Part shown: piece by piece, positions 6,589 to 17,845 of the stretch
How the letters are laid out: each line of letters opens with the position of its first letter
Numbering within the stretch: the first letter of the stretch is position 1
Origin: an uncultured Bryobacteraceae bacterium
Lineage (GTDB): Bacteria > Acidobacteriota > Terriglobia > Bryobacterales > Bryobacteraceae
DNA length: 64,000 nucleotides
Direction of reading: 5' to 3'
Assembly (NCBI GenBank): GCA_938003835.1
Contig: CALKXJ010000010.1
Span: forward strand, 1 to 64,000
Notes under the pieces: generated by a model
What the model was told of the DNA's origin: nothing
Seen by the model: only the letters and a program-made list of their open reading frames with translations
The model's database searches: none
Program-made: the position numbers and the translations under genes

Positions 6589-6973
6589 CGTTTCGACCTC
6601 CACCGCAGAAAAGGCTTCTCGTCTTCCGTGCGCCGGATGCGCTCCCGCAACAGCTCGTTCTCCATCGCGAGTTCGGCGATCACCGACTTCATCCGGCGGC
6701 CCTGCTCGTCGACCAGATCCTCCTGCCGGATCTTCAGCCCTTCTTCGCCGGCCGCCAGGAAGGCCTCGCGCCACTCCGACAGGGTCGCTGCTGTGACGCC
6801 GTACTTGCGCCTCGTGGACTCCAGACCGGCGCCGCGGAGCAGTTCCAGAACCACGCTCATCTTGCGTTTGGCCGACCAGCGGCCCTTACCGCCGCGGCGG
6901 ACTCCGGCCCCGCTTCAGTCGCCCTCCGGGCTCCTTGCGCGGGCCCGGAATCCGCGTGTTTCGTGTTGGACAT
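6585..6973 (-). pseudogene. IS3-family OrfA (element B), frameshifted near its start
   Basis: The natural start is ATG 6973 with AAGGAG seven bases upstream. The first 25-30 codons (SNTKHADSGPAQGARR...) run in a different frame from the conserved KGRWSAKRKMSVVLELLRG and VTAATLSEWREAFLAAGEEGLK helix-turn-helix. A one-base change near 6890, in GCGGCGGTAAGGG, joins them. From 6860 onward the frame is open to 6585. Confidence 0.7.
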
Positions 6974-7020
6974 ACTGACACTCCTTATCGCAAATCAGTG
7001 TCCAATGAAATCGTGGGGCG

Positions 7021-7397
7021 GGGGAGCAGGAAAGTTCGTCGAGCTTCGCGCGGAATTCATACTGGCGCGCGGTGCGCTCCTGTTGGCTGAGCCCGGCTGC
7101 ACGAACATCCCATTGGTAGAACCTTCGGAGGAGGATGTTAAGCCGAAACCCGCATTCCAGCTCGTCGAGGATGAAAATTGGAAGAAGATCGACTCTTCAC
7201 TGTCGTTCCTTGTGCCATCGCCGACAGGGCGGATCGGACGAATCTTCGCCACGATCGAGGGACGTTTTGACTGGGCGTTTCAGCTTCGCCGCGGACGACG
7301 TGTACGTGTCGCGCAGCGTTATGGCCATGCAGCGCTTTTCGACTCCCGGCTCGTTATACATAGGGTCTCGACCGTCGAGTTGGTGCCACCGCATTGA
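7021..7397 (+). pseudogene. 3' remnant of an unknown gene, truncated by IS element B
   Basis: An open frame without its own start runs directly out of the IS end. The last residues (RIFATIEGRFDW... then RYGHAALFDSRLVIHRVS) look like the C-terminus of a real protein with a beta-strand plus YGH-containing block. I recall this kind of ending in small acidobacterial proteins of unknown function, but I cannot name a family. The 5' part was probably removed by the insertion. Confidence 0.4.
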
Positions 7398-14087: not shown

Positions 14088-14384
14088 AACCTGCAATCTG
14101 GCCAAGATGGTGCAAATACTCACGTTGTCGCTCCGGCCACACCGCCTGCCTAGTAGCGGCTGGAACCAAAGCGTACAGTCTTTGTGCCCGCCTGGCACGT
14201 TTGGTTACGGTTGACCATGATCTGAAGTTCGGCTACGCCGACAAAACCATTTCCCCGCACCGATTCCGGCACGCCCGTTGACTCCTCTCGCCACCCATAC
14301 CCCTGCGACTGGCCGTGTCTTTGCATGATCCGCCTCTACGCTTTGCGCCCCTCGTCCGCCGTGCCTCGCTGATCATCGCACAGG
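14088..14384. other. intergenic / decayed sequence between the sigma-54 operon and the RHS remnant
   Basis: No supportable gene is present. A short phrase on the plus strand near 14245 (KTISPHRFRHA) faintly resembles the HRxRH box of tyrosine recombinases, but nothing around it supports an integrase. Upstream activator sites for the operon, if they exist, should lie here. TGCACC-like half-sites occur near 14110 on the minus strand. Confidence 0.4.
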
Positions 14385-14406
14385 TTTCCGCAACCGCTTC
14401 CAGCCG

Positions 14407-16020
14407 GTGGCGGTCCGGCTGGGGACGGGAGCTGCATCGGGCTGCGCGATGCAGGCGGGCGATCTGCTCCGGCTCAGCTTCGACTACGGCACAACAAAGA
14501 ACAACGGGAATGTTTTGAGACGGCAGGGAATCCCCTCGCGCCCGCGCGAGGGCCTCCGCAACGGCTGCGGCTGCCACCAGAATCTTGCGCGGCCAGGATT
14601 TTCAGTCACGCAGACGTACACCTATGACGCCTATAATCGGATCCAGAAGGTGGAGGAAGGTAGCAACCACCGCGATTTCCAATACAAAGAGCCGGGCAAT
14701 ATGTACGTGCCGTCTTCGCAGGCAACGGGCTGGGCGCCCGGCAGCTTCACGCCAACCTCGCCGTCGTGGTTTGATGAGAAGAACCGATTGGTGACTCCAT
14801 TGCTGGGGACTCAGTACGACGCGGCGGGCAACCTGACGGCGATCGGGGGATTCACGTTTGAGTACGACGCCGAAAACCGCCGGGTGTCGAGCACGCTGAA
14901 CAGCGTGACAACGACCTACGCCTACGACGGCGAAGGGCGGCGGGTGAAGAAGGGCTCGGCGGTGATGGTCTATGACGCCTTCGGTCGGCTGGCGGCGGAC
15001 TACGGCGGCACGGCGGATCCGGTGGGGACGGAGTATTTGACGGCAGACCATCTGGGCTCGACGCGGCTGGTGACAAGCTCGACCGGCGCTGAGCGGCGGT
15101 GCCTGGACTATCTGCCGTTCGGCGAGCAGATGACGCAGGGCATGGGCACGCGCGGGTCGTGCTACGCCAGCTCCACCGAGCCCAGGGTGAAGTTTACCGG
15201 CAAGGAACGGAACGCCGAAAGCGGCCTAAATTACGTTTTTGCCCGTTACTACTCCGCAGCCCAAGGTCGATTCACATCACCCGATGAATTCCAAGGCGGC
15301 ATCGTCGATCCATTCACCGAGCAGCAGGTGGGTGCGCCGGGTCCGCTGCCATACGCGGACATCACAGACCCGCAAACGCTCAACAAGTACGCGTACGTAC
15401 GCAACAATCCGTTGCGGTATGTTGACCCAGACGGACATTGTCACTTCTACATCGGAGCGCTCCTCGGTGGGGTGGTCGCAGGAGGCGTCGAGTTTGCGAA
15501 GCAGCTATACACAACTTACAGGTGTGGGCAATCTCTACACTTTGATGGGCAGAAGATACTTGTGAAGACCGCTAACGGCGCGATTTTTGGAGGAACGGTC
15601 GCGGCTACGGGTGGGCTCCGCCTCGCAGGTACGACCCAGGCGTATAATACGACCGCGAGTATGGTTGGTGGTGCTGTCGAACGGAGCATCGACGCCGATT
15701 CCGACGCGGTAGTCCTGGCCGAGAAGGCAATTACCGCTGATGTTCTCACTGGCGCAGCTACGGGCCTAGTTGGTGGTGGGGCCAAAGAGCTGGCTAAGGG
15801 TGCAATAGCAGCTGGATCCAGGCAGGCCACCTCACGGGCTGAAAGCCTTCTTCGTCAGGCTGTCGAGTCGGGAGACCCTGCGAGGATCGCGAAGCGTGAA
15901 GCACAAGCGCAGGCCGTCCAATCCAGCGTAAACAGGCATGCAGTCGCTGCATCAGCAGCACAGCGCACAGCCGTGAAGACGGCTGTTGGCACCGTACTCA
16001 AGCCTGAGGAGCAGCGTTGA
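14407..16020 (+). CDS. RHS-repeat core with variable C-terminal toxin candidate, N-terminally truncated
   Basis: The first 370 residues or so are YD/RHS repeats (TYTYDAYNRIQKVEEG, YDAAGNLTAIGG, YAYDGEGRRVKKGS, TADHLGSTRLVT). They end in the RHS core signature (KFTGKERNAESGLNYVFARYY, then NKYAYVRNNPLRYVDPDG). After that comes an unrelated Gly/Ala-rich C-terminus of about 190 residues that matches no toxin family I know. The frame starts abruptly at a GTG inside the repeats (homology reaches back to about 14385), so the secretion part is missing. Full RHS proteins are several times longer. Its stop overlaps an immunity-like gene (TGATG). I read it as an orphan toxin module. Confidence 0.8.
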   Translation: MAVRLGTGAASGCAMQAGDLLRLSFDYGTTKNNGNVLRRQGIPSRPREGLRNGCGCHQNLARPGFSVTQTYTYDAYNRIQKVEEGSNHRDFQYKEPGNMYVPSSQATGWAPGSFTPTSPSWFDEKNRLVTPLLGTQYDAAGNLTAIGGFTFEYDAENRRVSSTLNSVTTTYAYDGEGRRVKKGSAVMVYDAFGRLAADYGGTADPVGTEYLTADHLGSTRLVTSSTGAERRCLDYLPFGEQMTQGMGTRGSCYASSTEPRVKFTGKERNAESGLNYVFARYYSAAQGRFTSPDEFQGGIVDPFTEQQVGAPGPLPYADITDPQTLNKYAYVRNNPLRYVDPDGHCHFYIGALLGGVVAGGVEFAKQLYTTYRCGQSLHFDGQKILVKTANGAIFGGTVAATGGLRLAGTTQAYNTTASMVGGAVERSIDADSDAVVLAEKAITADVLTGAATGLVGGGAKELAKGAIAAGSRQATSRAESLLRQAVESGDPARIAKREAQAQAVQSSVNRHAVAASAAQRTAVKTAVGTVLKPEEQR

Positions 16021-16454
16021 TGCGCTTAGGGTATTCGGCTGAGACGCCCGACGTTCTGGTTGCGGCCTATAACTCGTTATTCAGGTTGGTCTGGTCGGTG
16101 ATGGTGGGCATGGCTACAGCGATCATCTTCGGAGCCGCCGTCGCTGATGCACCGGCCCGGTCTACCGCAGAGCCCATTTTTACAATTGTGGCTACTGGCT
16201 ATATTCTTTTGGCTGGCGGCTTCCTACTTTCGATTTGGCGCAGCCGTGTTTCATTCAAAGAGGAAGGGATGCTCATCACCCGTCCGCTGAAAAGTGCGAT
16301 TTGGAGAACTTACGACGACATCGCAGCTGTCGAGCTCACTTCAGAACGGGTTGATCTTCGTTTCTCAGATGGCTCGAAGGCTTCAATCAACCGCCACATG
16401 GCCGATCTATCACAGATCCAGTCTCTGCTGGCCGCAAAGGCTTGGGGGCGATGA
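16020..16454 (+). CDS. immunity-protein candidate: two membrane segments plus a PH-like domain
   Basis: ATG 16020 overlaps the RHS stop. The product is 144 residues, with TM1 (LVWSVMVGMATAIIFGAAVA) and TM2 (IFTIVATGYILLAGGFLLSIW). A C-terminal soluble part of about 65 residues follows, with beta strands and a final helix like bacterial PH (YcxB-type) domains (RVSFKEEGMLITRPLKSAIW). Its place directly behind an RHS C-terminus, with coupled translation, is the usual position of a cognate immunity gene. A membrane immunity protein would fit a toxin that acts at the inner membrane. The function is inferred from position only. Confidence 0.6.
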   Translation: MRLGYSAETPDVLVAAYNSLFRLVWSVMVGMATAIIFGAAVADAPARSTAEPIFTIVATGYILLAGGFLLSIWRSRVSFKEEGMLITRPLKSAIWRTYDDIAAVELTSERVDLRFSDGSKASINRHMADLSQIQSLLAAKAWGR

Positions 16455-16460
16455 GATTGA

Positions 16461-16598
16461 GTGATTCGGCAGTTTACCGGCAAAGAATGGGATGCCGAAA
16501 CCGGGCTAGACTTTTGGGGTGCTCGGTATTATTCAGGGGCGCAGGGGAGATTTGCAACTGCGGACCCACTGAATCGGCCAACGGAGCAAACACTGTGA
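16461..16598 (+). pseudogene. displaced RHS core fragment (remnant of an older toxin tip)
   Basis: A 45-codon frame reads QFTGKEWDAETGLDFWGARYY, then SGAQGRFATADPLNRPTEQ before TGA. This is a second copy of the RHS core signature, different in sequence from the one at about 15195. It has no repeats before it and no toxin after it. Such silent core fragments downstream of an RHS gene are known leftovers of C-terminal tip exchange in polymorphic toxin loci. Confidence 0.75.
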
Positions 16599-16918
16599 AT
16601 AGCGCCCCGAAGGCAGCGCTTCCCATGCCCCTGAGACCATGGTTGTTCTGGCTGCCGTTCCTGCTGGGCAGCGGTGCACTGGCTTTGGGGGTCCTCTTAG
16701 CGCAGGTCCCCGGAAAAGACCGCACGTGTGACATGGTCGTCTTTTCCACCGCCACAGCCCTACTGGTAGGGGCTCCCTGGCTTGGGTTCTTCGTGTCAAA
16801 GGCACCGTACGGTCAAAGCTCAAGGTGGACCAAGCCGGTCTTGCAAGTCGTCACCGTCATGGAGCTTCTTTTCGCTGCATATGGTGCGTTTGGCGCTCTA
16901 ACGTATCGGGGCCTGTAA
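16595..16918 (+). CDS. small membrane protein, second immunity candidate
   Basis: GTG 16595 overlaps the stop of the RHS fragment (GTGA), which decides the start. The product is 107 residues with three hydrophobic segments (LFWLPFLLGSGALALGVLLA; MVVFSTATALLVGAPWLGFF; LQVVTVMELLFAAYGAFGAL). By position it is the immunity gene of the lost toxin whose core fragment precedes it. It could still protect against siblings carrying that toxin. No family was recognised. Confidence 0.55.
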   Translation: MNSAPKAALPMPLRPWLFWLPFLLGSGALALGVLLAQVPGKDRTCDMVVFSTATALLVGAPWLGFFVSKAPYGQSSRWTKPVLQVVTVMELLFAAYGAFGALTYRGL

Positions 16919-16936
16919 GCGTTCATTCCCCCGCCT

Positions 16937-17050
16937 CACGATTTCATTAGTCACTGATTTGCGATGAGGAGAATCACTCTATCCAACGCGAAACAGGCGG
17001 ATTTCGGGCCCGCTTCAGTCGCACTCAGGGTTTTTGCGCGAGCCGGGCGT
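16937..17050 (+). repeat. solo end fragment of IS3 element B with a small internal inversion
   Basis: Bases 16937-17011 match the outer end of element B (minus strand of 7015-6943), including CACTGATTTGCGAT and the GGATTYCGGGCCC region. Right after GGGCCC the match flips. Bases 17011-17044 (CGCTTCAGTCGC...) match the plus strand of 6911-6944 instead. So the scrap is an IS end in which about 35 bp were inverted between short GGGCC/GGCCC repeats. Confidence 0.65.
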
Positions 17051-17156
17051 CGGAGGAAGCAGGGAACATTCTCGAGCACAGAGGCGAGTTGAGCCGTTCA
17101 AGGCAAGCCGCAGAGAAGGACCTGCCGGACGAGCTGCGCCTGAGGCCCGGGCCGCC

Positions 17157-17591
17157 TCAGGCAGCGTCGCGCACTTCGACGGACATCTGTTTTCCAAGCA
17201 CGGCAAGGGCGGCCTGGATCTTTTCGGGCCTCGTGGCGTGCCGCGGGTCCAGCATGCGGCGGATGACGCGCTCATCGACGCCCAGGCGGCGCGCCAACGC
17301 GGAGTTGCTGACGCGCTGCTCGCGCATGGCGAGATAGAGAGCGAGCTTCGGCGCCAGCCAGAGCGGCACGGGCACCCGGCGCTGGCCGCGCTTGACGGGC
17401 GAGGGCGTGGGAATCTCCTCCCGGCGGGACAGGCGGATGGAAAGATCGGAGCCGAGAGCATCGATGGCTTCCTCCATGGCCTCGCGCTCGTCTTTGCCGT
17501 CCGTGGCCACACGGGGCAGATCGACAAACTCGACCAGCACGCGGCCGTCACTGCCGGTGATGAACTTCGCTGGATAGCTGAGCAGGGACAT
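17157..17591 (-). CDS. hicB: HicB-type antitoxin
   Basis: The product is 144 residues. The N-terminal part (LLSYPAKFITGSDGRVLVEF, then DLPRVATDGKDEREAMEEA) is the HicB partial-RNase-H-like fold with its GxxVEFPDLP-type strand and helix. The C-terminal half has a helix-turn-helix (SNSALARRLGVDERVIRRML) for binding its own operator. It lies 11 bases downstream of the HicA gene with GGAGG before its ATG, the usual hicAB order. HicB neutralises HicA and represses the operon. Confidence 0.88.
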   Translation of the reverse strand: MSLLSYPAKFITGSDGRVLVEFVDLPRVATDGKDEREAMEEAIDALGSDLSIRLSRREEIPTPSPVKRGQRRVPVPLWLAPKLALYLAMREQRVSNSALARRLGVDERVIRRMLDPRHATRPEKIQAALAVLGKQMSVEVRDAA

Positions 17592-17602
17592 ACTCTTGCC
17601 TC

Positions 17603-17845
17603 CTACAATTCACGCGGGTCGATCTTCAAGTCCGCGCACATCTTGGCCAGCAGGTCGCGGCCAATCTCCTTCTTGCGATCCTTGAGGGTGGTGAACTCGC
17701 CGCCAAAGTAAAGGCGGCCGTGGCTGCCTTTTCCCTTGCTGGCCACAAAGCGGCACGGGATCTTCCGGCGCCGCGCCAGCCTCCGGACCTTCCGCTCGAA
17801 CTCCGCACCGTTCACTCCACCAGTCTCGGACATTTCTGTCCGCAT
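17603..17845 (-). CDS. hicA: HicA-type mRNA interferase toxin
   Basis: The product is 80 residues from ATG 17845 (a second ATG four codons on is possible). It has the double-stranded-RNA-binding-like fold pattern (FERKVRRLARRRKIPCRFVA) and the catalytic GSHGRLYFGG block with the essential His. HicA cleaves mRNA and is held in check by HicB downstream. The pair sits beside the RHS toxin region and IS debris, a typical accessory position. Both genes look intact. Confidence 0.87.
   Translation of the reverse strand: MRTEMSETGGVNGAEFERKVRRLARRRKIPCRFVASKGKGSHGRLYFGGEFTTLKDRKKEIGRDLLAKMCADLKIDPREL

Follow-up and report, generated by a model that had tools for sequence, protein, structure and literature searches.

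The 64,000-nucleotide stretch analysed here (hereafter the window) carries between positions 14407 and 16918 two RHS gene fragments, each followed by a gene for a small membrane protein. A preliminary description had read this arrangement as the exchange of an RHS toxin tip caught in the act, a new tip having displaced an old one and left its immunity gene behind. The locus thus raises the question of how the two modules came to stand in tandem and of what their tip and membrane proteins are for. The reading that we favour, with moderate confidence, is that of a headless array of RHS 3' cassettes, in which tips would be swapped at an FTGKER motif, a membrane-active glycine-zipper tip would be paired with a 144-aa immunity protein, and the whole would be used for protection or storage. 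The RHS ORF, the 144-aa gene, the second RHS fragment and the 107-aa gene described previously were all recovered, and the locus is organised as follows.

14407-16020, forward strand: first RHS ORF, 537 aa, assigned to RHS by profile.
14386-15190, forward strand: RHS core with YD repeats, truncated in 5' (PF05593, TIGR03696), of host-like GC3 (0.70-0.93).
15191-15228, forward strand: FTGKER motif, copy 1, the core/tip-cassette swap junction (repeat, switch of identity relative to genome G474, GC3 step).
15424-15780, forward strand: DPDG end of the core and glycine-zipper domain of the tip (~115 residues), homologous in 8 of 8 loci.
15781-16017, forward strand: tail of the tip, 79 residues, charged, Ala-rich, helical and unconserved across the family.
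16020-16454, forward strand: 144-aa immunity candidate with two TM helices (TM scan) and a soluble C-terminal domain; homologues lie behind homologous tips.
16461-16598, forward strand: second RHS core fragment, 45 codons and stop, with FTGKER copy 2 (16471-16508) at its start, interrupted short of the core's end and thus before its tip (TIGR03696).
16595-16918, forward strand: 107-aa three-TM protein, orphan immunity gene with a homologue in genome G011 (dN/dS 0.23).

The start of the 144-aa gene lies within the stop of the first RHS ORF (TGATG overlap) and the 107-aa gene overlaps the stop of the second RHS fragment by GTGA. This second fragment, in which the starting motif reads FTGKEW, had been described as in phase with the RHS gene of the first module; it is actually in phase with the 144-aa gene. 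The arrangement is no assembly artefact, since an independent assembly (contig L005, CALAMI010000039.1) is arranged alike, with 99.7% identity to the window over 4.8 kb, corresponding to eight substitutions and one 6-base indel. This contig is filed under a Candidatus Binatia MAG and, given its identity to the window, was probably misbinned. None of the eight SNPs of the 4.8 kb falls inside the 2.77-kb RHS block (window 14294-17067), for which the chance is about 0.001 if they are evenly spread; the RHS block may have recently spread by recombination.

By profile search, the first RHS ORF matches both the RHS-associated core (TIGR03696, E=3.4e-18) and the YD repeats (PF05593, E=2.7e-11). Its frame is open from 14329, with a GTG at 14407 as first likely start, and RHS-like sequence begins at about 14386, just past a stop, leaving only ~340 core residues. 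Nothing RHS-like was detected in the window upstream of about 14386, where the sequence is unrelated, and this ORF has neither the complete N-terminal region nor the cage that a deployable RHS protein would possess. Searching the whole genome with the core and PF05593 returned only the two RHS fragments of the locus: no full-length RHS gene was recovered, and no intact main rhs gene was found upstream of the module in the window or elsewhere in the genome. As the genome is rated 100% complete (38 contigs), we consider it possible but unlikely that a full-length RHS gene was missed by the assembly. The first module, being truncated in 5' in a genome with no RHS match besides the second fragment, cannot be deployed as a weapon in its present form. 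The two tandem modules of the preliminary description are supported, but its "active module" is not, the first RHS gene being itself a headless fragment. What the locus does exhibit is the composition of orphan rhs-CT/rhsI modules, i.e. a core fragment, a variable tip and an overlapping immunity gene, in tandem, and the same units were found in genomes G011, G566, G459 and G474.

Such a locus could be the inert debris of a dead RHS gene decaying without function. The missing N-terminus, the lack of a full-length RHS gene in the genome, the deletion of the second tip and an extra in-frame stretch of ~19 codons in the core relative to G474 all agree with this idea. However, the core, the tip and both immunity genes retain long intact frames with dN/dS values of 0.17-0.28 and, even if much of this constraint may predate the truncation, we hold inert debris to be unlikely. 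The extra in-frame stretch (window about 14521-14590, examined over 14515-14612), which contains a GC-rich palindrome and is absent from G474, was also considered as a mobile repeat; this was rejected, the stretch being single copy in the genome.

The history of the first module could be traced by comparison with G474, a one-contig genome of the same family. The window core is 86-87% identical to two of the G474 cores, and the G474 core is headless as well. The G474 array is ordered as core A with tip A, a free cassette B (zipper tip and immunity gene) starting just before FTGKER, and core C with a third tip. Up to FTGKER the window follows G474 core A, with 27-29 of 30 bases matching; from 15243 on it follows cassette B (28-29 of 30), whereas upstream of FTGKER only 8-12 of 30 bases match this cassette. 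Between the two matching zones lie ~36 bases resembling all G474 copies poorly. At the same junction GC3 falls from 0.93 to 0.53, and the two FTGKER copies of the window (15191-15228 and 16471-16508) form a 38-nt direct repeat (84%). The G474 comparison is thus direct evidence that a tip was swapped at FTGKER. The swap is an old event, given the synonymous divergence of about 0.3 per site between the window and G474, so that the exchange previously described as caught in the act can be seen at FTGKER but is not recent.

How the swap proceeded can be explained in two ways. A deletion between FTGKER copies within one array would yield the window state, and import of a cassette may have done so as well. 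In the direction taken by the preliminary description, a new tip came in and displaced the old one, so that the second core fragment and the immunity gene belonging to it ended up downstream. The order of a new module followed by a fragment and an immunity gene fits the classical C-terminal displacement (PMC8125069), and the GC3 of the tip and immunity gene is lower than that of the core. On the other hand, in G474 this tip is found on a free cassette next to a homologous core that bears another tip, and a deletion between FTGKER copies of a single array explains the fusion without any import; the headless state of the G474 core also speaks against a newcomer. The retention of the old immunity gene is supported, but the G474 comparison speaks at least as strongly for a fusion, at FTGKER, between the core and the cassette next to it, and displacement by a newly arrived tip appears to us rather less probable than its opposite.

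The second RHS fragment was recognised by profile search (TIGR03696, E=1.4e-9). The 107-aa protein behind it exhibits 77% identity over its full length, with the same GTG start, to the product of a G011 gene that overlaps the stop of an RHS tip. Matches of this G011 tip to papain-like families are weak (Lnb_N, 1.4e-4; Peptidase_C97, 0.005). The dN/dS of the 107-aa gene is 0.23 in its own frame versus 1.5 and 1.6 in the other two. Because its homologue of equal length lies directly behind a papain-like RHS tip and its own frame is constrained, the 107-aa gene can be considered the immunity gene of a tip since lost, as had been proposed; a search for it behind other RHS tips had been suggested, and G011 offers such a case. 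The second module is thus a core fragment without its tip, next to the immunity gene that went with it, and the lost tip would have been of the G011 kind. The stop of the 107-aa homologue in G011 is immediately succeeded by a further FTGKER cassette, and the same succession, a gene behind a tip and then straight away another FTGKER fragment, was seen in G011, G566 and G459.

These arrays suggest a cassette unit running from FTGKER through the end of the core and the tip to the immunity gene, with recombination between FTGKER repeats as the means by which tips are exchanged. In the window, as the G474 comparison shows, FTGKER is the point where a truncated core was joined to a cassette carrying a glycine-zipper tip and a two-TM immunity protein; as homology to G011 shows, the next cassette dropped its tip and retained the 107-residue immunity gene.

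The tip itself, counted after DPDG (15424-15435), has 194 residues, close to the about 190 previously given. For neither the tip nor the immunity protein did Pfam, NCBIfam, PADLOC or PDB sequences give a significant match, and no enzyme is recognisable in the tip; the best single-member match was DUF6560 (2.6e-4) for one immunity homologue, the others being weaker. The view that the C-terminus matches no known toxin family holds for Pfam, NCBIfam and PDB. Profile search and structure prediction had been recommended for the residues after NPLRYVDPDG: the profiles gave no family match and the AlphaFold models were poor (pLDDT 50 and 64). The TM scan of the tip detected no segment above the standard threshold (best 19-residue mean 1.39). 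As single sequences, the tip and immunity protein had no match in 60 relatives or in plasmids, and a scan of genome contigs returned only the near-identical contig L005.

Using a two-row profile, seven homologous tips were identified (G409, G474, G498, G487, G566, G496 and G459), making eight loci with the window. In leave-one-out searches of 4,668 open frames, with the window and G474 removed together, the tips were recognised with E-values of 8e-13 to 4e-36. The similarity sits in the first ~115 glycine-rich residues, which scored 39-103 bits in leave-one-out, a level reached by 0 of 100 shuffles in any member tested, while the tail scores stayed within the range of their own shuffles for six of the seven members tested. 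Nothing in these results showed the C-terminus to be a non-toxic conserved RHS end. The phylum-wide search with the tip as a single sequence returned G409 as a real homologue; the other weak matches examined were frame noise, except contig L043 (G067), which later scored 2.7e-13 with the tip profile and has a different gene behind its tip. In G474, a Mutator-family transposase interrupts the zipper tip and leaves the immunity gene intact (contig L103, 7666-8925). A further RHS tip, in G008, matches the T6SS effector family TseH (L065, 2806-3618, minus strand coordinates; PF25218, E=6e-19).

We then considered the genes behind the zipper tips. In the window, G409, G498, G487, G566 and G459 (6 of 8 loci), the gene directly behind the tip codes for a protein of 143-171 residues that has two TM stretches and, at its C-terminus, a homologous soluble domain, in agreement with the overlapping membrane immunity candidate proposed earlier. 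G474 is the seventh locus, with a 91% identical gene behind the transposase that splits its tip; counting it as linked presumes that the IS insertion is later than the tip/gene pairing. By leave-one-out, homology of the downstream gene holds in 7 of 8 loci and fails in G496, where a two-TM gene one place further on had first been counted as a homologous immunity gene and was discarded (E=73). When 40 distinct RHS tips for which the downstream sequence was available were counted automatically, the gene was the immediate neighbour of 5 of 8 zipper tips versus 0 of 32 others (p=8.5e-5), one of the five positives being G496, without which p=8e-4 by hand; the motif used missed G487 and G459, and the three misses were G067, G119 and the IS-split G474. 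Weak matches to the 144-aa and 107-aa genes, examined in the phylum-wide single-sequence search, had no RHS core beside them. We did not find the two membrane proteins to be genes that occur away from RHS genes, an outcome that the preliminary description had held against itself.

What is conserved in the 144-aa family is the soluble domain and not the helices, and this domain goes with the zipper, the sole conserved part of the tip. By its pattern the C-terminal domain might be PH-like, with no Pfam PH match and a weak AlphaFold model; a fold search of the immunity model returned nothing at E<=0.001. Relative to G474, dN/dS is 0.17 for the 144-aa gene and 0.17-0.27 for tip and immunity gene. 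The glycine-zipper tip/immunity family appears uncatalogued, no Pfam or NCBIfam model matching it.

The best reading of the pair is that the tip is membrane-active (pore or depolarising) and that the 144-aa protein is its immunity, in the manner of Tse5/Tsi5. The zipper tip would most likely enter the inner membrane of the target and depolarise it, and the 144-aa membrane protein would block it via its soluble C-terminal domain. The main rival on mechanism is that the zipper only serves as a pre-toxin translocation domain, the true toxin being lost or consisting of the short variable tail, and the module being a decayed effector. Indeed, in G119 a diverged zipper stands on a full-length RHS protein and is followed by a further C-terminal domain, deaminase-like as read by eye (no Pfam match), and by another kind of gene, which suggests that the zipper can also serve in translocation; Tde1 provides an experimental precedent for a glycine zipper used in this way (PMC10240207), and the tip tails are unconserved. 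Yet the eight tips end without a recognised enzyme and the intact ones end close to the immunity gene, the end of the tip and the TGATG overlap are common to the window and G474, the conserved domain of the immunity protein goes with the zipper, and dN/dS is 0.2-0.27. We thus find a translocation-only zipper improbable and retain the membrane-active tip.

As the genome has no RHS gene capable of delivering the tip, the present function is probably protection against neighbours carrying these tips, or a reserve of tips. More tentatively, and perhaps a little less likely than its opposite, the loci would define a new polymorphic family in which zipper RHS tips kill by making the inner membrane leaky, two-helix proteins neutralise them via a soluble domain recognising the zipper, and FTGKER-bounded cassettes are maintained as a stock of immunity, even by genomes lacking any full-length RHS gene. 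The locus brings an uncatalogued toxin/immunity pair together with several homologous pairs, and it narrows both the edge of the cassette and the point of exchange in the RHS arrays of this group down to a few dozen bases. It also provides a genome that has retained orphan immunity genes while lacking a full-length RHS gene, in which their use as pure protection becomes testable.

Some features of the flanks are shared with G474. A gene pair at 17157-17845 (minus strand) flanks the array on one side in the window and on both sides in G474 (C1 2097440-2098165 and 2106137-2106942), with 83-86% DNA identity; the rest of the surroundings differs. We take this pair to resemble HicB/HicA toxin-antitoxin genes, a naming that no Pfam model supports. 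An 87-bp inverted repeat pair (86%) lies at 16930-17018, directly behind the 107-aa gene, and at 6939-7025, and a copy also adjoins the G474 array.

C-terminal displacement of RHS tips and arrays of displaced tips are already known (PMC8125069, PMC3967940, PMC3482391). As in the orphan rhs-CT-rhsI modules of Enterobacteriaceae and bee gut symbionts, the window exhibits tandem fragments of 3' core, tip and immunity gene that arose by recombination within a common part of the core, and orphan immunity genes are kept (PMC3967940, PMC8125069). It differs from them by the lack of an intact main rhs gene and by the size of the shared hook, 38 nt at FTGKER versus 522 bp; in Salmonella, main and orphan rhs genes were fused over longer homology than in the window (PMC3967940). 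A headless array without main gene is unusual but not unique, as G474 is headless and Gilliamella apicola genomes hold only orphan tips (PMC8125069). Among glycine-zipper effectors, EsxX (PMC12744356), the CDI ionophores (PMC11630599) and Tde1 (PMC10240207) likewise bring zipper helices to the target membrane, as toxin or entry device; their carriers are others (T7SS, CDI, T6SS cargo), and the likeness is one of feature. Finally, in the part of the report available (PMC9637101), Tse5 of Pseudomonas aeruginosa is a pore-forming RHS tip and Tsi5 its two-TM immunity protein. Pore formation is shown there only for Tse5, no soluble C-terminal domain such as that of the 144-aa protein is described for Tsi5, and the likeness is drawn by features, not sequence. 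The window pair nevertheless shares with Tse5/Tsi5 an RHS tip of similar size without enzyme motifs or catalytic domain, accompanied by a membrane immunity protein with two TM helices.
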